Below are positions 2,951-62,042 of a stretch of 64,000 nt of DNA, piece after piece. Numbering within the stretch: the stretch's first letter is position 1; each line of letters opens with the position of its first letter. The notes under the pieces are model-generated. The model did no database searches and was not told the DNA's origin. It was given only the letters and a program-made list of their open reading frames with translations. The stretch comes from Bosea sp. AS-1. GTDB lineage: Bacteria; Pseudomonadota; Alphaproteobacteria; Rhizobiales; Beijerinckiaceae. The stretch lies in NCBI RefSeq assembly GCF_002220095.1, contig NZ_CP022372.1:1522501-1586500 (forward strand). The letters run 5' to 3'. The position numbers and the translations under genes were made by a program.

Positions 2951-4159
2951 TTAGCGGCCGAGCGCCCTGATCGAGTTGCGGGTGACGAGCGCGTCGCTGG
3001 AGACGCCCGAGACCGTCGACGAGACGTCGTTGACGAGGTTCAGGAACTTCGTCAGCTCGACCTGATCCGCATTCGAGACGTAGATGACGTCGCGATCGCG
3101 CATCTCCATCTTCTGTGCCAGGAACAGGCCCTGACCCTGGCGCATGTTGACGCGGTAGATCGTCGGAATCTGCTTTTGGTCGACGGGGAAGTTCTCAAGA
3201 GAGACGCCCTGCTGTTCGAGCATGCGGCGGTTCTCCATCCGATACAGGAACACCTGTCCCGGATCCGCACGGCTATCCAGCAGGCCGCCGGCCTTGCCGA
3301 CGCCGTCGGCGAGATAGAGCTTCTCGGCGTCGAAATCGAAGCGGCCTTGCAGGCCGGATGCGCCGAAGGCGGTGAAGAAGCGCTGCTCGCGATAGACGTA
3401 GACCGTATCGCCCGGCGCGACGAAGATGTTCTCGCGCGGTTCCTGCACCAGCCGGTTGAAATAGACGGTGGCCTTCCGGCCGCGGCGCTGCAGCGTGACA
3501 TAAGTCTCGTGGCCCGCATATCTGAGGCCGCCCGCACGCGAGATCATGTCCAGCACGCGGTCGCCCTCGAAGTTGACCTTGAGCTTGGCCGACGCGTTGA
3601 CGTCACCCACGACCGCAACTTCCGAGGCGCGGTCCACGAAGGTCACCAGCGCCTGAGGCTCGATGGCCCGGTTGGACAGGCGCGAGACGATGTCTTCCTG
3701 GATCTCGTTCAGAGTTCTGCCGACCACCGGTACGCGGCCGGCATAAGGGATCGAGATCGAGCCGCTGCGCTCGACGACCTGGGACGGAAGCGTAACGAAA
3801 TTGCCGGGACGGGTGCCGGAATCCTTCGGAATGAACAGGCCGCCGGAAACGGCTTCGAAGATCGTGACCTGCACGGTATCGCCGACCGAGACGCGAATAT
3901 CGGGCGCTGCGCCCTTGCCGCCGCCGAAGGACTGATGGATCGAGCCGGGTGCCGATGCGGCCGAGGCCTTGACGATCGACTCCGAGAGGTCGACCAGCGC
4001 ATAGGCCATATCTGGCTGCCGGGCTTCCGGCGCCACTGAACCCGCGGCTTCGCTCGCGAGCTGATGGTGATCAGGACCCGACCGGGGCATGAACGTACAT
4101 GCCGAGACGGAAGCCGCGATCATCCCGACCGATATTACGCGTACCAGACTAACTAGCAT
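2951..4159 (-). CDS. polysaccharide export outer-membrane lipoprotein (Wza/BexD type)
   Basis: A 402-aa outer-membrane auxiliary protein that forms the channel through which capsule or exopolysaccharide leaves the cell. The N terminus is a lipoprotein signal, with a hydrophobic stretch to residue 20 and a lipobox SVSAC that places the lipid-modified Cys at 21. A Poly_export domain begins near residue 85 (DIRVSVGDTVQVTIFE) and is followed by SLBB-type repeats (residues about 180-350, for example GDTVYVYREQRFFTAFG). It is divergent from the secreted Gly-rich protein and the autokinase, the usual partners of such a channel. Confidence 0.9.
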   Translation of the reverse strand: MLVSLVRVISVGMIAASVSACTFMPRSGPDHHQLASEAAGSVAPEARQPDMAYALVDLSESIVKASAASAPGSIHQSFGGGKGAAPDIRVSVGDTVQVTIFEAVSGGLFIPKDSGTRPGNFVTLPSQVVERSGSISIPYAGRVPVVGRTLNEIQEDIVSRLSNRAIEPQALVTFVDRASEVAVVGDVNASAKLKVNFEGDRVLDMISRAGGLRYAGHETYVTLQRRGRKATVYFNRLVQEPRENIFVAPGDTVYVYREQRFFTAFGASGLQGRFDFDAEKLYLADGVGKAGGLLDSRADPGQVFLYRMENRRMLEQQGVSLENFPVDQKQIPTIYRVNMRQGQGLFLAQKMEMRDRDVIYVSNADQVELTKFLNLVNDVSSTVSGVSSDALVTRNSIRALGR

Positions 4160-37348: not shown

Positions 37349-38355
37349 CGGGCCTCCCGCCGCATGCGGTCGACGAGGCTGAACAGGAAGGGAGCGCCGA
37401 TCAGCGCCGTCACCACGCCGAGCTTGAGCTCGGGGCGGATCGGTGCGAGCCGCAGCGCCGTGTCGGCGAGCAGGACGAGAATGGCACCGCCGAAGCCGCT
37501 GACCAGCAGCAGGCGGCCCGGCCGGTTCGCCACCAAGGGGCGCAGCAGATGCGGCACGACGAGGCCGACGAAGCCGATCGCGCCGGTGACTGCGACGGCA
37601 CTGCCGACCGCGAGTGCGGTGCCCCCGATCAACCGGGCGCGCAGCCAGGTCAGATCGACGCCGAGGCTGGCGGCAGTGTCCTCGCCGAGCGTCAGCGCAT
37701 CGAGCGCGGGAGCCGTCGAGAGCAGCAGCCCCCAGCCGATCAGCATCAGGGGTAGGGCGAGCAGAACATGGTTCAGGCTGCGGTCGGCCAGCGAGCCCAT
37801 CAGCCAGAAGACGATCTCCAGGGCAGCGTAGGGGTTGGGTGCGAGGTTCAACGCCAGCGAGGTTGCGGCGCCCGCGAAGCTGTTGAGCGCGACACCGGCC
37901 AGGATCAGGGTCGTGGTGCCGGCGCCGCGGCCGAGCAGGATGAAGAGCAGCAGCGTCGCCAGGATGGCTCCGGCAATGCCGCCGAGTGGCAGGGCGAGGG
38001 CGAGACTGGCGGAAAGCCCGCTGTAAAACGCCAGCACCGCGCCGAAGGCGGCTGCGCTGGAGATACCGATGACACCGGGCTCGGCCAGCGGATTGCGCAG
38101 CAATCCCTGCAGCGCCGCGCCCGACAATCCGAGACTGAAGCCGACGAGCGCGCCGAGCAGGGCGCGGGGCAGGCGCAATTCCCAGAGCACGAGCGCCGGC
38201 AAGGTCTGCCGTCCCGCCAACAGGTCGCCAAACGCAGTGCCCAGATCGAGCGGGGCGTAGCCGATGGCGATCGAGAGAACGAAGACGGCAAGCGTTGCCA
38301 ATGCGAGCAGCGCGATCAACCGCGGCAATGGCGGTGGACGAAGGACGGTCCTCAT
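37345..38355 (-). CDS. btuC: vitamin B12 ABC transporter permease (FecCD/BtuC family)
   Basis: The 336-aa inner-membrane protein has about ten membrane segments. It shows the FecCD signatures LWELRLPRALLGALVGFSLG, LSGAALQGLLRNPLAEPGVI and GFVGLVVPHLLR. It forms the channel of the importer with the adjacent ATPase. The ATG at 38355 overlaps the binding-protein stop (ATGA at 38352-38355), and its own end overlaps the ATPase start, so all three are translationally coupled. Confidence 0.92.
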
Positions 38356-49537: not shown

Positions 49538-49704
49538 CGAGGATCGGCGTTCAGGAGCGCGTTTCGCGCAGGTCGGCGGTTCTATATCGGTTTTGCCCGC
49601 CTGCGGCCAGCGGGATCGGCAAATCCTGCCGGTCGAAGGCGGATTCTGCCGTGACAGACGCTCCATCTGGCAGGCTAAGCCGTTGAAATATAGGTAGCTG
49701 TCTC

Positions 49705-49720
49705 TGGCGCGCAACTTGCT
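49705..49720 (+). promoter_or_regulatory. sigma-54 promoter upstream of fliK-flgD
   Basis: TGGCGCGCAACTTGCT has GG and GC separated by exactly ten bases and matches TGGCACR-N4-TTGCW at all but one informative position. Transcription would start about 12 bases further on, near 49732, which supports the ATG at 49763 as the fliK start. A sigma-54 activator of the FlbD type is encoded at 56326. Confidence 0.75.
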
Positions 49721-49762
49721 CGCCGCAGGCGGGTGCTCTTTGCCCGCATTGCGGAACCGTTC

Positions 49763-51268
49763 ATGCCTGTCGAAACCGTGTTCAACACCTCGCCTGCCAA
49801 GGAGTCGTCGGGACCACGCCGTCGCTCCGGCGAAACCGGCGCGACCGGAGACGGCAAGGGCTTTTCCCTGCCAAAGCAGGAGGCGACCACGGCTCAAGAC
49901 GGTGGGCAAGACGCAACCCGCGACGGGAAGCCCGCTTCGGCGCCCCGGCAGCCAGCCACCGCCGCTGCGGTGAAAGCCGCCGGTCAGGACAAGCCGGTGA
50001 CGACGGCACGATCGCAGACATCGCCTGCGCCAGCCGGTTCGTTCGTCGATACGCTGGCGGAACTCCTCGCTGCTGCGCAGGAGCAGGCAGCCTCGCCCGC
50101 GGGCGATACGACCGACGAGGCGGGGGCGAAGGGCAAGCCCGGGCAGAAGGGGACCGACGGGAAAAAGGCTGGCGAGGCTTCCGCAGACAGGGCCGAGGGT
50201 ACCGACACGGCGGTCGCTGACAAGATTTCGGGCGAGGTGGCCGCCCTTGCGGTCTCGCCGGATCAGAAAACGACCGGGCAACAGATTGCGGGAGCACTGT
50301 CGCTTGCCTTGCCTGTCGCGGCTTCTGCTGGCGGCAAGAATCCGGGTGAGGATGCCGTCGCAGAGGGCGGCGCCATTCCACCGGGACAGGCATCGAAGGG
50401 CCAGATACTGGCGGCTTCCGCGCTTGCGGCGCGCGCCGGTCACACCGAGCAGGCCGGGACCTCTGTGGGCAAGCCTGCTGACGGTTCCGCGCCGGCAGCG
50501 ACACCGACCACGATCACCGGCGAGCATTCGCCGACCACTGCGCAGGCACACAAGGGCACCACTCTCGACACGGCTGCCGACGCGACGGTCTCTTCCATGA
50601 AGACGGATGCCGCGCCGGGCATTTCTTCCGGGCAGGGCGCCTCTGCCACGCCCGGGGAGGCGAAGCCGGCCGAGGTCGTCGTGCAACAGGCCCTGGCGCC
50701 GATCGATCTCGGGGCGCTGGTGCAGCAGGCGGTCGGTGGGGCCGACTCCGCCAGGCTTCTGTCTCCGCTCGATCAGGCAACGGCGGCAGCAAACCAGGCG
50801 CCTTCGCCCGGGCAGGGACAAACCGGGCTCCCGCCGACACCGCTGCATGTCCTGCCTATCGAGATCGGGCTGCGCGCGCTCTCCGGCTCGAAGCAGTTCG
50901 ACATCCGGCTCGACCCCGACGAGCTCGGTCGCGTCGACGTCAATCTCTCCATTTCCGACAAGGGCGAGGTCAGTGCCCGCCTCGTGGTCGATCGTGTCGA
51001 GACGCTGCATCTGTTGCAGCGCGACGCGCGCACGCTGGAGCGCGCTTTCGAGCAGGCGGGCCTCAAGCCTTCGGATAGCGGCGTCGATATCAGCCTGCGC
51101 GATCCGTCTGACCAATCCGCCTTTCGGCAGCAGCGCCAGCATGAGGAGGCGCCGCAGCGTCCGCGCCAGCCTTCGCTTGCCGAAACGGGCGACGACGCCG
51201 TTCTTCAGACCAATCCCGTGCCGCAGCGTCGCCTCGTGCGACTGGGCGGCGTCGACCTCAGCATCTGA
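49763..51268 (+). CDS. fliK: flagellar hook-length control protein FliK
   Basis: The 501-aa protein measures hook length and switches export specificity. Its first 350 residues are low-complexity Ala/Gly/Thr/Pro/Lys sequence as usual for FliK. The C-terminal Flg_hook domain (about residues 365-450) is clear: [59 protein letters not shown]. The ATG at 49763 is preferred to a GTG at 49733 because of the sigma-54 promoter position. It precedes flgD by 15 bases. Confidence 0.9.
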
Positions 51269-52440: not shown

Positions 52441-52478
52441 TTAACCAGCCGCTAACCATGCACCGGGAAAAACTTGCC
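52441..52478 (+). promoter_or_regulatory. composite CtrA box plus FlbD-like element upstream of fliF
   Basis: TTAA-N7-CTAAC (from 52441) is a CtrA-like box with one mismatch. It is followed by CCATG and then CCGGG-N6-TTGCC, ending at 52478. The same arrangement with identical spacing occurs before flhA at 59801. The second half resembles the palindromic sites bound by FlbD in Caulobacter flagellar promoters, as far as I recall them. It lies 55-92 bases before the fliF start. Confidence 0.6.
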
Positions 52479-52532
52479 TAGTGGGCGACGCAAATCAGGC
52501 GCCGCCCGCGGCTTTGTGGAACGGATGGCGGC

Positions 52533-54230
52533 GTGAACGGGCTTTTCGAGCAGTTTGCCAAATTCGGCGCGGCGCGGCTGGCCGCGATGCTGGCCGTGAC
52601 GCTGACGCTCGTCGGCTTCTTCGGCTTCGTGATGTTCCGCATGTCGCAGCCAGCGATGAGCGTGCTGTTCGCCGACCTCTCGAGCCAGGATGTCAGCGCG
52701 ATCCTCAAGGATCTCGATGCCCGCGGCATCAAATACGAGCTGCGCGGCGACGGGCAGACCGTGCTGGTGCCGAAGGACGATGTGCCGCGCCTGCGGCTCG
52801 ACCTCGCCGGCAAGGGTATCCCGGCCGGCGGCGGCGTCGGCTACGAGATCTTCGACAAGGGCGACGCCTTTTCCTCGACGAGCTTCGTCCAGAACATCAA
52901 TCACCTGCGCGCGCTGGAAGGCGAGCTCTCGCGCACCATCCGCTCGATCAGCCGGGTGCAGGCCGCGCGGGTGCATCTTGTCATTCCTGAGCGGCGCCTG
53001 TTCGAGCGCGATCGCGAGCCGCCGCGCGCCTCGATCGCGCTCAAGCTTGCCGGCGATCTCGATGCCGCCCAGGTCCGGGCGGTTCGTCATCTCGTCGCTT
53101 CGGCCGTGGACGGGCTGAAGCCGGAGCGCGTCTCGATCGTCGACGAGCGCGGCCGCCTGCTGGCCGATGGCGCCCGCGACGAGCAGGGCATGCTCGGGCT
53201 CGGTCTCGACGAGCGCCAGACCGCAATCGAGAAGCGGATCAAGTCGCAGGTCGAGGACATCGTCGCCGGCATAGTCGGCTACGGCAGGGCACGGGTACAG
53301 GTTTCGGCCACGCTCGACGCCAACAGGGTCGAGAGCCGGTCGGAGAGCTTCGATCCGGAAAGCCGGGTCGTGCGCTCCAGCCAGAATCGTACCGAGGCCT
53401 CGGCGACAGCCGAGGCCGGCAACGGCACCGTCACCGTCGGTAATGAGCTGCCCGGCGCGCAGCAGACGCAAGGCCAGCAGCAGAACCAGCGCGACACCTC
53501 CTCGAAGAACGAGGAAGTGGTGAATTACGAGATTTCGAAGACGACGCGCACGGAGCTGCAGGAAGGCGGGCGCATCAAGAAGCTCTCGGTCGCCGTGCTG
53601 CTCGACGGCAATTACAGCCGGGGCCAGAATGGTGAGCTCGCCTACCAGCCGCGCGGCAACGAGGAACTCGACCGGATCAGCGAATTGGTGCGCACCGCCG
53701 TCGGCTTCGACCAGAACCGTGGCGACAAGGTTGAGGTCGTCAATCTGCGCTTCGCCGAGGCGCCGCAGCCGCCGGGAGACATGACCGAGCAGACGCTGAT
53801 GCAGCAGCTGATGTCCTTCAGCCGCGAGGATCTCGTCCGCTTCGCCGAGCTTGGCGTCATCTCGCTGCTCACCCTGATCGTGCTGATGACGGTCGTGCGC
53901 CCGTTGCTGAAGCAGGTTCTGGCCTCCGACAACAGCGTCACCACGCGGGCGCTTCCGAGCTTCATGCGCAACGGGACGCTGGTCGGCCCGGACGGCGAGC
54001 CTACCGGCGATCCCGCCGCGCCGGGCCGCGCCGTCGCGACCGTTGGTCCGAATGGTGAGCTCGTGTCGGCCGAGGTCGAGATGCCGTCCGAACGCATGCT
54101 CGCCATCGCCCAGGTCAAGGGCCAGCTCAAGGCGCAGTCGGTCGAGAAGATCGGTGCGCTGGTTTCGCAGAATCCGGCCGACTCGGTCGCGGTGCTGCGC
54201 AGCTGGATCCACGAGAAGGCACCGGCGTGA
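52533..54230 (+). CDS. fliF: flagellar MS-ring protein FliF
   Basis: The 565-aa protein forms the inner-membrane ring of the basal body. It has a first membrane segment near residues 12-36, YscJ/ring-building motifs (LRLDLAGKGIPAGGGVGYEI, TRALEGELSRTI-like RALEGELSRTIRSI) and a Gln/Asn-rich flexible periplasmic loop. A second membrane segment lies near 455 (LGVISLLTLIVLMTVV), with a cytoplasmic FliG-binding tail at the end (ADSVAVLRSWIHEKAPA). The start is a GTG. It is the first gene of the fliF-fliG-fliH-fliN-flbD operon. Confidence 0.95.
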   Translation: MNGLFEQFAKFGAARLAAMLAVTLTLVGFFGFVMFRMSQPAMSVLFADLSSQDVSAILKDLDARGIKYELRGDGQTVLVPKDDVPRLRLDLAGKGIPAGGGVGYEIFDKGDAFSSTSFVQNINHLRALEGELSRTIRSISRVQAARVHLVIPERRLFERDREPPRASIALKLAGDLDAAQVRAVRHLVASAVDGLKPERVSIVDERGRLLADGARDEQGMLGLGLDERQTAIEKRIKSQVEDIVAGIVGYGRARVQVSATLDANRVESRSESFDPESRVVRSSQNRTEASATAEAGNGTVTVGNELPGAQQTQGQQQNQRDTSSKNEEVVNYEISKTTRTELQEGGRIKKLSVAVLLDGNYSRGQNGELAYQPRGNEELDRISELVRTAVGFDQNRGDKVEVVNLRFAEAPQPPGDMTEQTLMQQLMSFSREDLVRFAELGVISLLTLIVLMTVVRPLLKQVLASDNSVTTRALPSFMRNGTLVGPDGEPTGDPAAPGRAVATVGPNGELVSAEVEMPSERMLAIAQVKGQLKAQSVEKIGALVSQNPADSVAVLRSWIHEKAPA

Positions 54231-54244
54231 CGGGCCGCTGAACC

Positions 54245-55324
54245 ATGGCAGAGACACGCTCCATCGCGACGCGCAATCCCGGTCTCCCCGAAGGCATCGA
54301 GGGGGGAGGCTTCGGCGTCACCACGATCGCCCAGATGACCGGCCCGCAGCGCGCGGCCGTCATCCTGCTCGTGCTCGGCGAGGATCACGGCAAGGCCATC
54401 TGGCAGGAATTCGACGACGACGAGATCCGCATCATCACCCGCGCCATGGCCGAGCTCGGCACCGTCGATGCCGACGAGGTCGAGCGGCTCATGCTGGACT
54501 TCGTGGGCAAGCTCTCCAGCGCCGGCGCCGTGACCGGATCCTTCGATCGCACCATCTCGCTGCTGGAGAAGATCCTGCCGAGCGATCAGGTCGCGCTGAT
54601 CATGGAGGAGATCCGTGGGCCGGCCGGCCGCAACATGTGGCAGAAGCTCGGCAATATCGATGCCGTCGTGCTCGCGAACTTCCTCAAGAACGAATACCCG
54701 CAGACCATCGCCGTGATCCTCTCGAAGATCCGGCCGGATCATGCCGCCAATGTGCTGCGTAACCTGCCGGGCGATCTCTCGATCGAGGTGGTCGGACGGA
54801 TGCTGCGGCTCGAATCCGTGCAGAAGGAAGCGCTCGACCACATCGAGAACACGCTGCGCACCGAATTCGTCTCGACGTTGACTCAGACGCGCCGCCGCGA
54901 TCCGCACGAGATGATGGCGGAGATCTTCAACGGCTTCGACCGGCAGACCGAGATCCGCTTCCTATCGGCGCTCGATGCGTCCAATCAAGAGGCGGCCGAG
55001 CGCATCCGCGCCCTGATGTTCACCTTCGAGGACCTCGCCAAGCTCGATCCGGCCGGGCTGCAGACGCTGATGCGGCAAGTCGACAAGGACGTTCTGGCCC
55101 GCGCGCTCAAGGGTGCCAGCCAGCCGATGCGCGAGTTCTTCTTCGGCGCGATGTCTCAGCGCGCCGCCAAGAACATGCAGGACGACATGGAGGGGCTTGG
55201 CCCATTGCGCCTCAAGGAGGTCGACGAGGCCCAGACCAAGCTGGTGACGATGACCAAGGACCTCGCCGACAAGGGCGAGATCGTGCTGTCGAAGGGCAAT
55301 TCCGAAGACGAGCTGGTGTACTGA
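54245..55324 (+). CDS. fliG: flagellar motor switch protein FliG
   Basis: The 359-aa torque-generating rotor protein. The N-terminal domain binds FliF (MTGPQRAAVILLVLGEDHGK), the middle has the EHPQ-equivalent EYPQ motif in NEYPQTIAVILSKI, and the C-terminal domain has the charged rotor helix (LAKLDPAGLQTLMRQVDKDV) and GASQPMREFFFGAMSQRAA. It follows fliF by 14 bases, and its stop is 1 base from the fliH start. Confidence 0.96.
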   Translation: MAETRSIATRNPGLPEGIEGGGFGVTTIAQMTGPQRAAVILLVLGEDHGKAIWQEFDDDEIRIITRAMAELGTVDADEVERLMLDFVGKLSSAGAVTGSFDRTISLLEKILPSDQVALIMEEIRGPAGRNMWQKLGNIDAVVLANFLKNEYPQTIAVILSKIRPDHAANVLRNLPGDLSIEVVGRMLRLESVQKEALDHIENTLRTEFVSTLTQTRRRDPHEMMAEIFNGFDRQTEIRFLSALDASNQEAAERIRALMFTFEDLAKLDPAGLQTLMRQVDKDVLARALKGASQPMREFFFGAMSQRAAKNMQDDMEGLGPLRLKEVDEAQTKLVTMTKDLADKGEIVLSKGNSEDELVY

Positions 55325-55325
55325 A

Positions 55326-55919
55326 ATGGCGACCGCGACGAAATTCATGTTCGGGACGGATTTCCGCGAGGGCAACCGCAAGGCGGCCAGCGAGGCCGAT
55401 CTCAATGCGGCCCGGGCCGCCGGATTTCAGGCCGGCCAGGAACAGGGCCGCCGCGAGGCGGAGGCGCAGTTCAACGGGCTCGCCGGGCAACTCGCCCGCT
55501 CGGCGGAACGGCTCTTCGCGCTGGAAACCGCGCGCATGGCAGCGATCGAGGAGCAGGCGGCGCAGGTTGCGCTGGCCGCCGCTAGAGCGCTCGCCGGAGC
55601 GGCGCTGGCCGAGAAGCCGATGGCCGCGCTGGCGCAGGCCATCCGCGAATGCATCGGCCACGCCCGCCAGGCGCCACACCTGGTCGTGCGCGTCAACGAG
55701 GTATCCGTCGAGGCGGCCGAGGAACTGGTGAGGCGCCTGGGGCGCGAGCACGGCTTCACCGGCCAATTGATGGTGCTGGGCGAGCCGGACATCCGCCTCG
55801 GCGACGGGCGGATCGAATGGGCCGACGGCGGCTTCGTGATGGATGGAGAGCGGCTCTCGGCTCTGATCGAGCAGGCGGTCGCCAGTGTTTTCCCCGGCGG
55901 TAGCCACACCGGGCAATGA
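55326..55919 (+). CDS. fliH: flagellar assembly protein FliH (FlbE-like)
   Basis: The 197-aa cytoplasmic protein has an N-terminal part rich in Ala/Gly/Glu/Arg, with GxxxG-type spacing (FQAGQEQGRREAEAQF), and a helical middle. The C-terminal domain is of FliH/YscL type (QAPHLVVRVNEVSVEAAEEL, GQLMVLGEPDIRLGDGRIEW). FliH regulates the export ATPase FliI, which is not in this window. The place between fliG and fliN matches flbE of Caulobacter. Confidence 0.88.
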   Translation: MATATKFMFGTDFREGNRKAASEADLNAARAAGFQAGQEQGRREAEAQFNGLAGQLARSAERLFALETARMAAIEEQAAQVALAAARALAGAALAEKPMAALAQAIRECIGHARQAPHLVVRVNEVSVEAAEELVRRLGREHGFTGQLMVLGEPDIRLGDGRIEWADGGFVMDGERLSALIEQAVASVFPGGSHTGQ

Positions 55920-55930
55920 AGGTCTGAACC

Positions 55931-56281
55931 ATGAGCCAGGAGAACGATCTCAACCTGCCGCCGCTGAGCCAGACCGACCTGTCATTCGATCAGAACGACA
56001 TGTCGGTGGCGCATTCGGGACCCGTTCCGGTCAAGACGGCCGAGGACCTCGAGCAGGTCTTCGACGTGCCGGTCACGGTCTCGGCCGTGCTCGGCTCCTC
56101 GAAGGTCGCGGTGGGCGACCTGCTCCAGATCGTGCCCGGCACGGTGCTGGAGCTCGACCGGCGCGTCGGCGAGGCGATCGACATCTTCGTCAACGAGCGC
56201 CTGGTGGCACGCGGCGAGGTCGTGGTCGTCGAGGACCGGCTCGGCGTGACCATGACCGAAATCATCAAGGCCGACCGGTGA
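55931..56281 (+). CDS. fliN: flagellar motor switch protein FliN
   Basis: The 116-aa C-ring component has an acidic unstructured N terminus and a SpoA domain from about residue 45: DVPVTVSAVLGSSKVAVGDL, PGTVLELDRRVGEAIDIFVN and ARGEVVVVEDRLGVTMTEI. It forms the lower C-ring with FliM, which is not in this window. Eleven bases separate it from fliH. Confidence 0.95.
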   Translation: MSQENDLNLPPLSQTDLSFDQNDMSVAHSGPVPVKTAEDLEQVFDVPVTVSAVLGSSKVAVGDLLQIVPGTVLELDRRVGEAIDIFVNERLVARGEVVVVEDRLGVTMTEIIKADR

Positions 56282-56325
56282 GAGCCGCGACGCCTTCACA
56301 TTCGACCAGCAGAAGGACCTGAGCC

Positions 56326-57696
56326 ATGCGCCTCATCATTGCCGGCGGTCTCAAGGGACAGATCATCGCCGCGGCCAAGATCGCGATGTCGCACGGGGCG
56401 GCCGTCACCCACACCGAGGGGCTCGACCAGACGCTCGCCGTGCTCCGCGCGAAGGGCGCTGATCTCCTGATGATCGATGTCGTGCAGCCGATCGCGGCTT
56501 ATGTCGCTGCGCTCGATGCCGAGCGCATCCGCACGCCGATCATCGCCTGCGGCACCTCGACCGATACGCGCGCCGCCGTGGCCGCGATCCAGGCCGGTGC
56601 CAGGGAATACGTGCCGCTGCCGCCGGATCCGGAGCTGATCGCAGCGGTGCTGGAGGCGGTCGCGGCCGATCAGTCGAGCCTGATCTGGCGCGACCCGGCG
56701 ATGGAACGCGTCGTCCAGCTCGCCGCGCAGATCGCGCGCTCCGAGGCGCCCGTGCTCGTCACCGGCGAGAGCGGCACCGGTAAGGAGGTGATCGCCCGTC
56801 ACCTGCACCAGAAGTCGGGCCGCAAGGACCGGCCTTTCGTCGCGGTGAACTGCGCGGCCATCCCCGACAACCTGCTCGAATCCGAGCTGTTCGGACATGA
56901 GAAGGGCGCCTTCACCGGCGCGATCGCCCGCCGCATCGGCAAGTTCGAGGAGGCCAATGGCGGCACGCTGCTGCTCGACGAAATCTCGGAGATGGATGTG
57001 CGCCTGCAGGCCAAGCTCTTGCGCGCGCTGCAGGAGCGGATGATCGACCGTGTCGGCGGCACGCAGCCGGTCAAGGTCGACATCCGCATCATCGCCACCT
57101 CGAACCGCAATCTTGCCGATGCGGTCCGGGACGGCTCGTTCCGGGAGGATCTGCTCTACCGGCTCAACGTCGTGCATCTGCGCCTGCCGGCGCTGCGCGA
57201 GCGGCCCGGCGACATCCTGGCGCTGGCCGAGCATTTCGCTAAGAAATATGCCGAGCTGAACGGCCTGCCGCAGCGGCCGATTGCGGTGGACGCGCGCAAG
57301 CTGCTGCTCGGCAATGCCTGGCGCGGCAATGTGCGGGAGCTGGAAAATACGATGCACCGCGCGGTGCTGCTCGCCAGCGGGCCGGACATCGCGGCTGCGG
57401 CTGTGCTGACGCCCGAGGGCGAGGCGCTCGCGTCGAGTGCTGTCGGGTCGCGGGATGCGGCGGGAAGGGCGGCGCAGACGGCGGAGGCGATGACACGCTC
57501 GCTGGTCGGCCACACCGTCGCCGATGTCGAGCGCGAGCTGATCCTCGACACGCTCGACCATTGCCTCGGAAACCGAACCCACGCGGCCAAAATCCTGGGG
57601 ATCTCGATCCGCACGCTGCGCAACAAGCTCAGCGAATATACCGCCGCCGGGATTGCCGTGGCGGAGCCGGGTCAGGCCCGTATCAACGCGGTCTGA
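56326..57696 (+). CDS. flbD: sigma-54-dependent flagellar transcription regulator FlbD
   Basis: The 456-aa activator has a receiver-like N-terminal domain (about 1-115) and an AAA+ domain (about 125-345) with Walker A GESGTGKE, the sigma-54-contacting GAFTGA loop in HEKGAFTGAIARR, and Walker B GTLLLDEIS. A Fis-type HTH closes the protein (RTHAAKILGISIRTLRNKLS). The receiver lacks an obvious DD acidic pair near its start, as in FlbD, which is not a typical phosphorylated response regulator. It should activate sigma-54 promoters such as that of fliK and may repress the fliF operon. Confidence 0.93.
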   Translation: MRLIIAGGLKGQIIAAAKIAMSHGAAVTHTEGLDQTLAVLRAKGADLLMIDVVQPIAAYVAALDAERIRTPIIACGTSTDTRAAVAAIQAGAREYVPLPPDPELIAAVLEAVAADQSSLIWRDPAMERVVQLAAQIARSEAPVLVTGESGTGKEVIARHLHQKSGRKDRPFVAVNCAAIPDNLLESELFGHEKGAFTGAIARRIGKFEEANGGTLLLDEISEMDVRLQAKLLRALQERMIDRVGGTQPVKVDIRIIATSNRNLADAVRDGSFREDLLYRLNVVHLRLPALRERPGDILALAEHFAKKYAELNGLPQRPIAVDARKLLLGNAWRGNVRELENTMHRAVLLASGPDIAAAAVLTPEGEALASSAVGSRDAAGRAAQTAEAMTRSLVGHTVADVERELILDTLDHCLGNRTHAAKILGISIRTLRNKLSEYTAAGIAVAEPGQARINAV

Positions 57697-57711
57697 CCCG
57701 AAAAGCGCGGC

Positions 57712-58026
57712 TTACCAATAACGCCGGCGGTAGTAGCGATAACGCGGCCGGTAATAGTAGCGCGGCCGGTAATAGTACCGCGGGCGATAATAGGGCCGGT
57801 AATAGCGGTAGCGCGGCCGACGGTAGTAATAGTATTGGCTGAATTCGGCGTCGGATTTGTCCAACGCCTCCTTCGTCTCGGCCGGAACGGCCTCTGCGTC
57901 CTTGGGCGGCGCGCCTTCCGGTCGCACGGGCCGGGCCGGCTGAGCGGCTTCGGCGGCGGCGATCCCGCCAAGGCCGGCGGCGGCAAAGCCACCGACCAAT
58001 GTCATCAGGAATGAGCGTCTGTCCAC
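57712..58026 (-). CDS. Tat-signal protein with Tyr/Arg/Pro-rich repeat tail
   Basis: The 104-aa product begins with a twin-arginine signal (DRRSFLM, then a Gly/Ala hydrophobic stretch to AEAAQ). A short acidic linker (PPKDAEAVPAETKEALDKSD) follows. The last 40 residues consist of Tyr, Arg and Pro in tandem YYRPR-like units. GTG at 58026 is the start, with GGAGG 6 bases upstream. It would be exported, and the tail may bind polyanions. The family is unknown to me. It converges with flbD. Confidence 0.7.
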   Translation of the reverse strand: MDRRSFLMTLVGGFAAAGLGGIAAAEAAQPARPVRPEGAPPKDAEAVPAETKEALDKSDAEFSQYYYYRRPRYRYYRPYYRPRYYYRPRYYYRPRYRYYRRRYW

Positions 58027-58169
58027 GACGACCTCCAGATTGTCTTCACCACATGACCCCTTACCAGCCTTCTTAGAGGCTGAAAGCGGGCAAGGGGTAA
58101 TGCATTTAAAGGATGCTTTGTTCCCTTTCGTGGCTTTTCGAGCCGCATGGTTAGTGGCGAGGCTGCGCC

Positions 58170-59615
58170 TCAATCCACTGCGTTAAGCGGTCGGGCGACG
58201 CTTTCGAGCGGCTTGCGCTCGGCACGGACGGCGAAGCGTGCCGCGATGATCGCCGCCACCAGCATCAGCGCCGCGCCGAACAGATAGCCGCCGAAGACGC
58301 TGCCGCGAGAGCCGGTGTCGATCAGGATGCCGAAGAGCCAGGGTCCGGCGATGCCGCCCGCACCTGTCCCGATGGCATAGAACACCGCGATGGCGAGTGC
58401 CCGCATCTCGACCGGGAAAGTCTCGGAGACGGTGAGATAGGCCGAACTCGCGGCCGCCGAGGCAAAGAAGAAGACGACGCTCCAGCACAGGGTGAGTTGC
58501 GAGGCGGTGAGCCAGTCCTTCCAGAACAGGTAGCCGGTGCCGGTCAGCAGCAGGCCAGAGAGGGCATAGGTCGCGGCGATCATGATGCGTCGGCCCCAGA
58601 TGTCGAACAGGCGTCCGATCAGGAGCGGTCCGAGGAAGTTGCCGGCGGCGAAGGGCAAAATGAACCAGCCGATCGCCTGCGAAGGCACCTGATAGAAGTC
58701 GGTCAGGATCAGCGCGTAGGTGAAGAAGATCGCGTTGTAGAAGAAGGCCTGCGAGACCATCAGGGCGAGCCCGACCAGTGCCCGGTCGCGATGCACGACG
58801 AACAGGGCGCGGAACACCTCGCCAAGCGGCGTGGCGGGGCGTGGTCGCAGCTTGATGAGGTCATGAACCTCGTCTGGCGGCGGGGTGAAACCGGCGCGGC
58901 GTTCGATGTCGAGGATGATCGCGGCGGCGCGTTCGGGGTGGCCATGGCTGATCAGCCAGCGCGGGCTTTCCGGAATCCACTGCCGTAAAATCAGGATGAT
59001 GAGGCCGAGCACGGCGCCGATGAAGAAGGCGAGCCGCCAGCCATGCTCGGGATCGATGTGGGCCGGATCGAGCAGCACGATGGCGCCGAGCGCGCCAAGC
59101 GCCGCGCCGACCCAAAAGGAGCCGTTGATGACGAGATCGGTCCAGCCCCGCATGCGGGCGGGTATCAGTTCCTGGATCGTCGAGTTGATCGCCGTGTACT
59201 CGCCGCCGATCCCCATGCCCGTGATGAAGCGGAAGACCAGAAAGCTCCAGAGATTCCAGGAGAAGGCGGTAGCGGCCGTCGCCGAGAGATAGACCAGAAC
59301 GGTGATGGTGAAGAGCTTCTTGCGGCCGAGACGGTCGGTCAGCCAGCCGAAGAAGACGGCCCCCAGAACGGCACCGGCGATATAGGCCGCGCCTGCCATG
59401 CCGACATCGGCATTGCTGAACTTGAGGACTGGGCTCTCCTTCAAGGCGCCGGAAACCGCCCCTGCCAGCGTCACTTCGAGACCATCGAGAATCCAGGTAA
59501 TGCCGAGCGCGACGACGACGAGGCTGTGGAAACGTGACCAGGGCAGGCGGTCCAGCCGGGCAGGTACATCGGTGGAGACGAAAGAGCGATCATGTCCCGA
59601 CGAGGCAGCCTGCAC
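58170..59615 (-). CDS. MFS transporter, sugar-porter type
   Basis: The 481-aa protein has twelve membrane segments and major-facilitator signatures: GWLTDRLGRKKLF after segment 2, RFITGMGIGGEYTAINSTIQ and PESPRWLISHGHPERAA in the central loop, then GRLFDIWGRR in the second half. This fits the metabolite:H+ symporter/sugar-porter branch; the substrate is not predictable. The start is a GTG with GGGGGAAG upstream. It is an island between flagellar genes with no functional link apparent. Confidence 0.9.
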   Translation of the reverse strand: MQAASSGHDRSFVSTDVPARLDRLPWSRFHSLVVVALGITWILDGLEVTLAGAVSGALKESPVLKFSNADVGMAGAAYIAGAVLGAVFFGWLTDRLGRKKLFTITVLVYLSATAATAFSWNLWSFLVFRFITGMGIGGEYTAINSTIQELIPARMRGWTDLVINGSFWVGAALGALGAIVLLDPAHIDPEHGWRLAFFIGAVLGLIILILRQWIPESPRWLISHGHPERAAAIILDIERRAGFTPPPDEVHDLIKLRPRPATPLGEVFRALFVVHRDRALVGLALMVSQAFFYNAIFFTYALILTDFYQVPSQAIGWFILPFAAGNFLGPLLIGRLFDIWGRRIMIAATYALSGLLLTGTGYLFWKDWLTASQLTLCWSVVFFFASAAASSAYLTVSETFPVEMRALAIAVFYAIGTGAGGIAGPWLFGILIDTGSRGSVFGGYLFGAALMLVAAIIAARFAVRAERKPLESVARPLNAVD

Positions 59616-59800
59616 CGGTTCTTCCCCCGATTTCTGTCAGCGCTCGTGGGCGCGAAGGGCGGCCGGGTTCGGCAGGGAGCGCCGGGCCGCAAGATGCCGC
59701 ATCGCCGGCAGCGCGGCGCAAGGCAGATTAAAACGGTAACGAGCGGGGGACAGGAAGGTTCCGTCGGCCCGTTCGGGAACAGGTCTGCGGAGGGGGGGGC

Positions 59801-59841
59801 TTAACCAATCATTCACCATGTGCCCGGCAAGAATTGCCGGG
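59801..59841 (+). promoter_or_regulatory. composite CtrA box plus palindrome upstream of flhA
   Basis: TTAA-N7-TTCAC (59801) is a CtrA-like box with one mismatch. It is followed by CCATG and a perfect 8-base inverted repeat, CCCGGCAA-GAA-TTGCCGGG (59823-59841). Spacing and many bases match the element before fliF. It lies 68-109 bases before the flhA start. Confidence 0.65.
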
Positions 59842-59909: not shown

Positions 59910-62042
59910 ATGTCCGATGTGACGGTAGGTCAGGGAAGCGGCTTCAACCTTCCCGACCGCGATGCGCTGGGCAAGCTCTTCAAGCGCCCGGATTTGTTCC
60001 TCGCCATCGGCGTCATGGGCATCCTTGTGGTGCTCATCTTCCCGATGCCGGCCGTGCTGCTCGACCTGATGCTGGCGCTGTCGATCATCCTGTCGGTGTT
60101 GGTGCTGATGACGGCGCTCTTCATCGAGGAGCCGCTGGAATTCTCGGCCTTCCCGACGGTGCTGCTGATCGTCACCATGTTCCGGCTGGCACTGAACCTG
60201 GCCTCGACGCGTCTCATCCTCGCGCACGGTCACGAGGGGACTTCGGCAGCGGGGCATGTCATCGAGGCCTTCGCCGGCTTCGTGATGAGCGGCAATTTCG
60301 TAATCGGGGTGATCGTCTTCACCATCCTGATCATCGTGAACTTCGTCGTCATCACCAAGGGTTCGGGCCGCATCGCGGAAGTGGCCGCGCGCTTCACCCT
60401 CGACGCTATGCCCGGCAAACAGATGGCGATCGATGCCGACCTGTCGGCCGGCCTGATCGACCAGGAGACCGCCAAGGTTCGGCGCAAGGCGCTGGAGGAC
60501 GAATCCTCCTTCTTCGGCTCGATGGACGGTGCCTCGAAATTCGTGCGCGGCGACGCCATCGCCGGCCTGCTCATCACCTTCATCAACGTGCTCGGCGGCA
60601 TCGTCATCGGCGTCGCCCAGCAGGGGCTGAGCTTCGGCCAAGCTGCGCACAACTATACCCAGCTCACGGTCGGCGACGGCCTGGTCAGCCAGATCCCGGC
60701 CCTGATCGTCTCGACCGCCGCGGGCCTGCTCGTCTCCAAGGCCGGCGTGCGCGGCGCGGCCGACAAGGCGCTCGGCAAGCAGCTCTCGGGCTATCCGAAG
60801 GCGCTCGGCATGTCGGCGGCGGTGATGCTGCTGATCGCGATCCTGCCCGGCATCCCGATGCTGCCCTTCCTGATGCTGGCGGCTGGCGCCGGCTTCCTCG
60901 CCCATCGCTTCGGTCGTGCTGCCAAAGCGCGTGCGGCGCAGGAGGCCATGTCGGGCGCTGCCCAGCCGGGCGGTGCGGCGGTCTCTGCCGACGGCACGCC
61001 GCGCGAGGAGACGCTGAACGACCTGCTCAAGATGGACGAGCTCAAGATCGAGATCGGCTATGCGCTGCTACCGCTGGTCAACGCACCGGGCGGGCAGGAC
61101 AGGCTGACCGACCAGGTCAGGGCGCTGAGGCGCCAGCTTGCGGCGGAGCTCGGCTTCGTCATGCCGGCAGTACGCATCGTCGACAACGTCCAGCTCGAGG
61201 CGAACCACTACTACATCAAGATCAAGGAGATCGATGCCGGGCATGGCATCGTCTATGCCGGCCAGTACATGGCTATGGACCCGATGGGCGGCACGGTGAA
61301 CCTGCCCGGCCACAATGTGCTGGAGCCAACCTTCGGCCTGCCGGCGACCTGGATCGACGGCGCCCTGCAGGACGAGGCGCAGCTGCGCGGTTACACCGTC
61401 GTCGATGCGGCGACCGTGATCTCGACCCACCTTACCGAGGTGCTGAAGTCGAATATGCCGGAGCTGCTCTCGCATGCCGAGGTGCAGAAGCTCTTGCGCG
61501 AATTGCCGAAGGACCACGCCGACCTCGTCAAGGAGATCGTGCCGAGCCAGATCTCGACCACCGGCATCCAGCGTGTGCTCCAGTTGCTGCTGGCCGAGCG
61601 CATCTCGATCCGCGACCTCGGAACCATTATCGAGGGCATCGCCGAGGTGGCGGGCGGGATCAAGAATCCGCGCGACATCGCCGAGCATGTCCGCGTCCGG
61701 CTCGCACGCCAGATCTGCGCGCAGTTCTCCGACGCCAACGGTGTCCTGCCGATCATCACGCTCTCGCCGGCCTGGGAGAGCGTCTTCGCCGAGTCGATCA
61801 TCGGGCAGGGCGAGGATCGCCACCTCGCCATGCAGCCCTCGCGGCTGCAGGAGTTCGTCCGCCATGTGCGCGACAAGTTCGAGGAGGCGGCGCGCATCGG
61901 CGAGATGCCGGCGCTCGTCACCTCCGGCATGGCGCGGCCCTTCGCCCGCCAGATCATCGAGCGCTTCCGCCGCGAGACGCCCGTTCTGTCGCAGGGCGAA
62001 ATTCATCCGCGCGCGCGGCTCAAGACGGTGGGCAGCGTCTAA
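59910..62042 (+). CDS. flhA: flagellar biosynthesis protein FlhA
   Basis: The 710-aa inner-membrane core of the flagellar export gate. Eight membrane segments lie in the first 330 residues, with the FHIPEP-family signature region RLALNLASTRLIL and the conserved loop RFTLDAMPGKQMAIDADLSAGL. A large cytoplasmic domain follows (residues about 370-710) with GHGIVYAGQYMAM, VVDAATVISTHLTEVL and LPIITLSPAWESVF. The ATG at 59910 is preferred; an in-frame GTG at 59820 lies inside the promoter element. Confidence 0.96.
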   Translation: MSDVTVGQGSGFNLPDRDALGKLFKRPDLFLAIGVMGILVVLIFPMPAVLLDLMLALSIILSVLVLMTALFIEEPLEFSAFPTVLLIVTMFRLALNLASTRLILAHGHEGTSAAGHVIEAFAGFVMSGNFVIGVIVFTILIIVNFVVITKGSGRIAEVAARFTLDAMPGKQMAIDADLSAGLIDQETAKVRRKALEDESSFFGSMDGASKFVRGDAIAGLLITFINVLGGIVIGVAQQGLSFGQAAHNYTQLTVGDGLVSQIPALIVSTAAGLLVSKAGVRGAADKALGKQLSGYPKALGMSAAVMLLIAILPGIPMLPFLMLAAGAGFLAHRFGRAAKARAAQEAMSGAAQPGGAAVSADGTPREETLNDLLKMDELKIEIGYALLPLVNAPGGQDRLTDQVRALRRQLAAELGFVMPAVRIVDNVQLEANHYYIKIKEIDAGHGIVYAGQYMAMDPMGGTVNLPGHNVLEPTFGLPATWIDGALQDEAQLRGYTVVDAATVISTHLTEVLKSNMPELLSHAEVQKLLRELPKDHADLVKEIVPSQISTTGIQRVLQLLLAERISIRDLGTIIEGIAEVAGGIKNPRDIAEHVRVRLARQICAQFSDANGVLPIITLSPAWESVFAESIIGQGEDRHLAMQPSRLQEFVRHVRDKFEEAARIGEMPALVTSGMARPFARQIIERFRRETPVLSQGEIHPRARLKTVGSV

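Follow-up and report, generated by a model that had tools for sequence, protein, structure and literature searches.

The window analyzed here is a stretch of 64,000 nucleotides of Bosea sp. AS-1 (contig NZ_CP022372.1, positions 1,522,501 to 1,586,500 of the forward strand), in whose numbering positions are given below unless marked otherwise. It carries the flagellar genes fliF (52533..54230, + strand, GTG start), coding for the membrane/supramembrane (MS) ring, and flhA (59910..62042, + strand, ATG start), coding for the export gate; both pass the NCBIfam cut-off. Each gene is preceded by a composite of a box for the regulator CtrA and a palindrome that is a candidate operator of the regulator FlbD. 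The composite proves to be a genuine regulatory element, conserved and of a kind already known.

The fliF element, read from 52441, is TTAACCAGCCGCTAACCATGCACCGGGAAAAACTTGCC, and the flhA element, read from 59801, is TTAACCAATCATTCACCATGTGCCCGGCAAGAATTGCC. If columns are numbered from the first T of TTAAC, the general layout is TTAAC-N6-yTAAC-N9-GGCAA-N3-TTGCC, in which TTAAC takes columns 1-5, the right half-site yTAAC (mostly followed by CAtg) columns 12-16, GGCAA columns 26-30 and, after three free bases, TTGCC columns 34-38. At fliF, the CtrA box TTAAC-N6-CTAAC (52441..52456, +) is followed by the candidate FlbD operator core GGAAA-AAC-TTGCC (52466..52478, +; 9/10 core letters), which begins 25 bases beyond the box start. 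At flhA, the CtrA box TTAAC-N6-TTCAC (59801..59816, +) is followed by the candidate operator CCCGGCAA-GAA-TTGCCGGG (59823..59841, +; core 59826-59838), a palindrome whose arms form the perfect 8-base inverted repeat with a 3-base spacer that an earlier sequence-only reading had described. Each box has the single mismatch which that reading assigned to it, CTAA at fliF and TTCA at flhA relative to TTAA-N7-TTAA, so that the genome's 26 exact boxes (11 in the reversed control) include neither of them.

Both elements were found where they had been placed, and their ungapped alignment holds with 27 identical letters of 38, compared with only 18-24 letters in the best 38-nucleotide match of shuffled upstream pairs (100/100 shuffles). 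ACCATG and TTGCC stand at equal offsets in both, as had been noticed. The separate part that ACCATG was thought to form is not borne out; it belongs to the extension of the right CtrA half-site. An ungapped variant, TTAACCAT, has been reported for Caulobacter (PMC6180460, accessible part). The pattern of letters shared by the two elements, which was built from these elements themselves, has exact matches in the 5.8 Mb genome only at fliF and flhA. At up to three mismatches it occurs at two further places, both in the divergent promoter of flgB and fliO (reversed control, one place).

Conservation and target genes

Eighty loci of relatives were fetched via FlbD, 7 of them without a usable FliF start and 38 without a usable FlhA start, so that the fliF set comprises 73 relatives plus the window and the flhA set 42 relatives plus the window. 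Counted as present at 16/20 letters or more, the composite precedes fliF in all 74 usable regions, with an offset of 25 in 65, 24 in 6, 26 in 2 and 27 in 1; the second half and the spacing are both kept. Before flhA it was found in 26/43 usable regions, always at offset 25, these counts covering relatives with flhA inside the fetched locus. Where the gap between flbD and flhA is at least 586 base pairs (bp), 24/24 genomes have the flhA composite, the window included; at gaps of at most 218 bp only 2/19 do (L062 and L045; Fisher p 4e-10, uncorrected for relatedness). The flhA copy therefore goes with distance from the fliF operon.

The left palindrome arm at fliF was described as degenerate, which is true of the window, where GGAAA replaces GGCAA, and of 22 of the 74 fliF sites. 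It does not hold as a rule: GGCAA stands in 46 sites, the remainder being GGCAG (3) and GGTAA (3), and the 26 flhA sites have GGCAA in 25 and GGCAT in 1. The exact fliF core GGAAAAACTTGCC is common to the window and 14 near relatives. Where both elements are present (26 genomes), the core at fliF is the poorer match in 17, equal in 8 and better in 1 (sign test p 1e-4, uncorrected for relatedness). Reduced binding of FlbD at fliF is plausible for the lineage of the window, not as a rule of the element.

The targets were searched with a sequence-derived model (R1) made from 67 elements of relatives, with no Bosea sequence and no flgB in training. Three full matches were obtained in the Bosea genome, before fliF (43.5 bits), flgB (36.6 bits) and flhA (29.9 bits); the next match (20.8 bits) spans the CtrA part only. 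Run against 60 genomes of the family, the model found matches at E<=0.01 in 28. At E<=1e-5 there are 55 matches, one of which spans only model positions 14-44, and every one precedes fliF (21), flhA (17) or flgB (17) according to a translated search of the downstream DNA. They come from 21/60 genomes; the other 39 were included irrespective of flagella, and the search used stricter filters, at which weak matches are lost. Of 19 weaker matches read (E 1e-5 to 0.01), 5 precede flgF, 2 flhA and 1 flgB, 2 lie beside the divergent gene opposite flgB (one with flgB on its other side) and 9 have none of nine query genes nearby. The matches at flgB and in Bosea are free of training circularity. The module had been proposed for fliF and flhA, where it stands; it is not limited to these two, flgB being covered as well.

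Two related promoters were observed outside the window. In the flgB/fliO divergent promoter (C3:2090805-2090900; L109 about 800-900), the full composite lies on the flgB side, and the fliO side has a CtrA box with ACCATG and no palindrome, with GCTATAGC further down; fliO was named from its position before fliP and has no Pfam match. The fliL/flgF intergenic region (C3:2113098-2113246; L110 about 3098-3246) holds a CtrA box, two palindromes and the sigma54-like box of flgF. In this related pair the spacing is shorter and, towards fliL, the palindrome comes before the CtrA box. Five further genomes of the family (L289, L291-L294) have this short spacing ahead of flgF.

The palindrome and its place relative to the CtrA box

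The identity of the palindrome was addressed through its other contexts. A survey of sigma54-like boxes covered 158 kb of the Bosea genome, that is, the window and six stretches picked mostly for flagellar genes or palindromes. Fifteen boxes were found, four of which have a palindrome of at least 8/10 at 60-130 bp upstream, an arrangement with a chance of 4% per random position. In the window, the palindrome CGGCAAATCCTGCCG (49617..49631, +; 9/10) lies 87 bp upstream of the sigma54-type box TGGCGCGCAACTTGCT (49705..49720, +) before fliK. The palindromes of flgF lie 99 and 113 bp upstream of its box (both 9/10), that of flgI 108 bp upstream of the box at C3:2073529 (L108, minus strand; 8/10), and that of a glycosyltransferase gene 98 bp upstream of the box at C3:1609099 (L112, minus strand; 8/10). 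The gene fliX is located near the flgI box, on the other strand.

Across the class, 290 genomes were searched, 170 had FliF and 120 fliF regions were fetched: 12 from genomes without FlbD at E<=1e-95 (12 of the 25 FliF genomes without a FlbD match), 5 from genomes with a weak FlbD (347-423 bits) and 103 from genomes with a stronger one, which are termed FlbD-positive when the strong match lies anywhere in the genome, not necessarily next to fliF. A palindrome of at least 9/10 precedes fliF in 79/103 FlbD-positive genomes versus 1/12 FlbD-negative ones (Fisher p 6e-6, uncorrected for relatedness), and the one FlbD-negative genome with such a palindrome has no CtrA box of 8/10 within 60 bp. In the first 83 FlbD-positive genomes it was found in 60, compared with 1.8 expected by shuffling. 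The five weak-FlbD genomes, kept outside these counts, have a 9/10 palindrome in 2/5 and neither of the layouts described below.

The corresponding regulators are encoded in the Bosea genome. The window gene flbD (56326..57696, +) scores above the cut-off of the NCBIfam FlbD equivalog; its product has GAFTGA at residue 194 and a Fis-type helix-turn-helix, and its receiver domain scores under the Pfam cut-off. CtrA passes the NCBIfam equivalog cut-off and FliX the Pfam cut-off. In Caulobacter, FlbD is reported to bind the site ftr4 at fliF and to repress fliF, and is described as a repressor of class II genes (PMC3930126, accessible part); deletion of fliX raises fliF-lacZ, which was read as loss of FlbD repression (PMC3096577, accessible part). 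Because of the sigma54 contexts, the co-occurrence with FlbD, the encoded FlbD, CtrA and FliX and the repression of fliF in Caulobacter, the palindrome is probably an FlbD operator that overlaps the -10/start region of a promoter activated by CtrA. The sequence-only reading of a CtrA and FlbD module with fixed spacing is thus upheld by conservation, sigma54 contexts and co-occurrence, and it needed revision in its parts, namely ACCATG, the targets and the arm.

Within the set of 80 relatives the fixed spacing is kept, but in the class at large the two sites occur in either order. Pairs of a 9/10 palindrome and an 8/10 CtrA box before fliF were counted in the first 83 FlbD-positive genomes, and two main offsets emerged: the box starts 24-25 bp before the palindrome (9 pairs, the Bosea layout) or 17-19 bp after the palindrome start (29 pairs, the upstream layout). 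Two minor peaks, at 7-8 (11 pairs) and at 39-40 (9 pairs), were interpreted as by-products of the upstream layout that arise when half a box, or a second palindrome at a distance of 21 bp, is counted. The 103 FlbD-positive genomes divide into 21 with the Bosea layout, 46 with the upstream layout, 3 with both and 33 with neither; shuffles of the first 83 gave 0.15 layouts, and none was found in the 12 FlbD-negative genomes. By family (62), 30 have the upstream layout only, 7 the Bosea layout only, 4 both calls and 21 neither.

Some regions combine several sites. A perfect palindrome upstream together with a site on the start region was observed in 3/3 genomes of family f92 (L297-L299) and 1/4 of family f9 (L164), and two palindromes exactly 21 bp apart lie upstream of the CtrA box of fliF in L141, L143, L144, L153, L161, L176 and L177. 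The possibility that upstream palindromes are enhancers of a divergent sigma54 gene was rejected: no opposite-strand sigma54-like box (at least 9/12, within 220 bp of the best palindrome) was found in 37 upstream-layout genomes. A single origin of the Bosea layout was not borne out on a tree of FliF fragments (99 rows, 85 columns, 42 of 96 inner branches open, 20 later regions left out), which requires 7 label changes versus 14.5 after shuffling.

Promoter architecture and alternative explanations

In CtrA-activated promoters of R. sphaeroides, transcription starts 23-24 nucleotides past the box, and an A at -11 and a G at -4 are invariant (PMC6180460, accessible part). In 67 aligned sequences, column 40, which lies 24 bases past column 16, is a purine in 67/67, and A in column 29 and G in column 36 are invariant. 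If +1 is set at column 40, column 29 would correspond to the -11 A and column 36 to the -4 G. By the alignment and the R. sphaeroides rule of the same source, the fliF start is predicted at 52480 (+); the alignment would place the flhA start at 59840 (+). Given these predicted starts, the CtrA box would lie near -35 and the palindrome core over -14 to -2, a place suited to occlusion. The best explanation, to which a probability of about 0.78 is given, is a sigma70-type promoter that CtrA activates and in which positions -14 to -2 would also serve as an FlbD operator.

The following circuit, in which binding, repression, start sites and timing are predicted, is proposed from the observed layout, conservation, target genes and co-occurrence with flbD. 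Bound at about -39 to -25, CtrA would switch on fliF-fliG-fliH-fliN-flbD, flhA and flgB at an early stage of flagellar assembly. FlbD, a product of the fliF operon acting under the control of FliX, could then occupy GGCAA-N3-TTGCC over the -10/start region and shut the early promoters by occlusion, and could activate the sigma54 promoters of fliK, flgF and flgI from palindromes about 100 bp upstream. Such a circuit would form a negative feedback, in which early genes go off while middle genes go on.

The alternative that keeps most of its ground, although improbable, is that FlbD binds the palindrome as a co-activator or timing factor instead of a repressor. At sigma54 promoters, FlbD is a known activator. 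In 46/103 class genomes, the site precedes the CtrA box at a constant distance, a place typical of activators; the site of the Bosea layout, however, covers about -14 to -2, and in Caulobacter fliF-lacZ rises in the fliX deletion (PMC3096577, accessible part).

Slightly less probable still is that the palindrome is no operator but only part of the core promoter, conserved as a variant -10 element that sigma70 recognizes together with CtrA. Its inner letters do sit at the position of the -10 element, and A in column 29 and G in column 36 fit the invariants of R. sphaeroides, a group reported to be without flbD (PMC6180460, accessible part). The outer GG and CC letters, however, are invariant too, beyond the needs of a -10 element; copies of the palindrome are also located about 100 bp ahead of sigma54-like boxes and, in other families, ahead of the CtrA box; genomes without flbD rarely have it before fliF (1/12, that one lacking a nearby CtrA box); and the promoter opposite flgB has a CtrA box yet no palindrome.

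The likeness of the two elements could also come from ancestry instead of selection, the flhA copy being a duplicate of the fliF promoter, as their 27/38 identity might suggest. This explanation is very unlikely, since different genera retain the same letters at the same spacing, and the free columns differ between the genes. Duplication as the origin of the flhA copy is possible, and the later conservation points to selection. A sigma54 promoter with GGC and TTGC as its -24/-12 elements is the least credible, for although GG and GC are invariant in the 67 aligned sequences, their GG-N8-GC gap is two bases shorter than GG-N10-GC, boxes with the N10 gap are present elsewhere in the genome, and the spacing rules this promoter type out at fliF and flhA.

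Several observations weigh against the CtrA-activated promoter overlaid by an FlbD operator. The agreement at -11 and -4 is not independent of the palindrome, because the same letters stand in its arms, and the R1 matches at fliF and flhA are partly circular, some training sequences coming from the same genomes. FlbD-positive genomes include 24/103 without a 9/10 palindrome before fliF and the 33/103 with neither layout, and the FlbD-negative genomes are few and related, 7/11 lying in one tree clade with a distant FliF, so that they do not count as 12 independent cases. With the palindrome upstream of the CtrA box in 46/103 genomes, a general mechanism by occlusion is ruled out. Nor is the palindrome by itself enriched in the genome, with 43 places at up to one mismatch versus 39 in the reversed control, by which a genome-wide regulon of the palindrome alone is ruled out. 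Specificity resides in the combination of CtrA box and palindrome, not in the palindrome alone. An exact palindrome copy at C3:4784041 and a pair at window positions 38197 and 38286 overlap long open frames and were judged coding by translation.

For the two layouts, a tentative scenario to which somewhat less than even odds are given is that the FlbD operator shifted relative to the CtrA box during alphaproteobacterial evolution, the same feedback being served by two mechanisms. In the upstream-only families (30/62), the palindrome would lie at about -57 to -45, immediately before the CtrA box and in some cases with a second copy 21 bp further upstream, and FlbD would have to work via CtrA or upon it. 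In several families, the Bosea group among them, the site is on the -10/start region and FlbD could act by occlusion. The genomes with both sites (f92 and one of f9) might represent intermediates.

Neighboring genes and comparison with known systems

The fliF operon continues with fliG (54245..55324, +), a fliH-like gene (55326..55919, +; PF02108, under its cut-off), fliN (55931..56281, +) and flbD. The closest relatives of the window FlbD are that of a Rhizobiales isolate at 96% and then those of Bosea species. Between flbD and flhA lie, on the minus strand, a small gene without a Pfam match (57712..58173), whose product is rich in R and Y, and a gene of a major facilitator superfamily transporter (58170..59615); in the Roseibium and Stappia loci examined, the gap from flbD to flhA is at most 218 bp, whereas the window has these two opposite-strand genes in between. 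Upstream of fliF, fliK is located at 49733..51268 (+; PF02120). Alongside the flagellar genes from fliK to flhA, the window also contains flgD. The gene ctrA (C3:1592608-1593279), encoded on the same strand, lies about 6 kb past the window's end.

The pairing of CtrA and FlbD is known in outline from Caulobacter; the module described here adds the targets flhA and flgB, and other families have a second, reversed layout, of which the literature searched gave no description. No description of the module in Hyphomicrobiales was found in the literature searched, which is weak evidence of absence, as subscription papers mostly fell outside the search. Motif 3 of Methylosinus sporium 5 (PMC12403871, accessible part) might, as a guess, be the same element, so that a candidate identity is offered for a published unassigned flagellar motif. 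The results give a sequence definition for a feedback switch known mainly from Caulobacter and name three targets in the Bosea group, fliF, flhA and flgB. The order of the sites differs between families, which makes a testable case of a circuit that is kept while its mechanism may have changed.

The nearest known system is the fliF operon of Caulobacter crescentus, with the site ftr4, which is likewise activated by CtrA, repressed by FlbD and controlled by FliX (PMC3930126, PMC3096577, accessible parts). Unlike that case, the Bosea module also stands before flhA and flgB, and flgB, described as CtrA-repressed in Caulobacter (accessible part of PMC6180460), has in Bosea the layout of CtrA activation. 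In the fla2 promoters of R. sphaeroides, the box ends 23-24 nucleotides ahead of the start, and A stands at -11 and G at -4, which the predicted starts in Bosea would match; unlike in Bosea, FlbD is reported as absent there, and the accessible part of the same source makes no mention of a palindrome. The ftr sites of sigma54 flagellar promoters find their counterpart in the same palindrome about 100 bp upstream at Bosea fliK, flgF and flgI. In this sigma54 context FlbD would activate, whereas at fliF, flhA and flgB it would repress.

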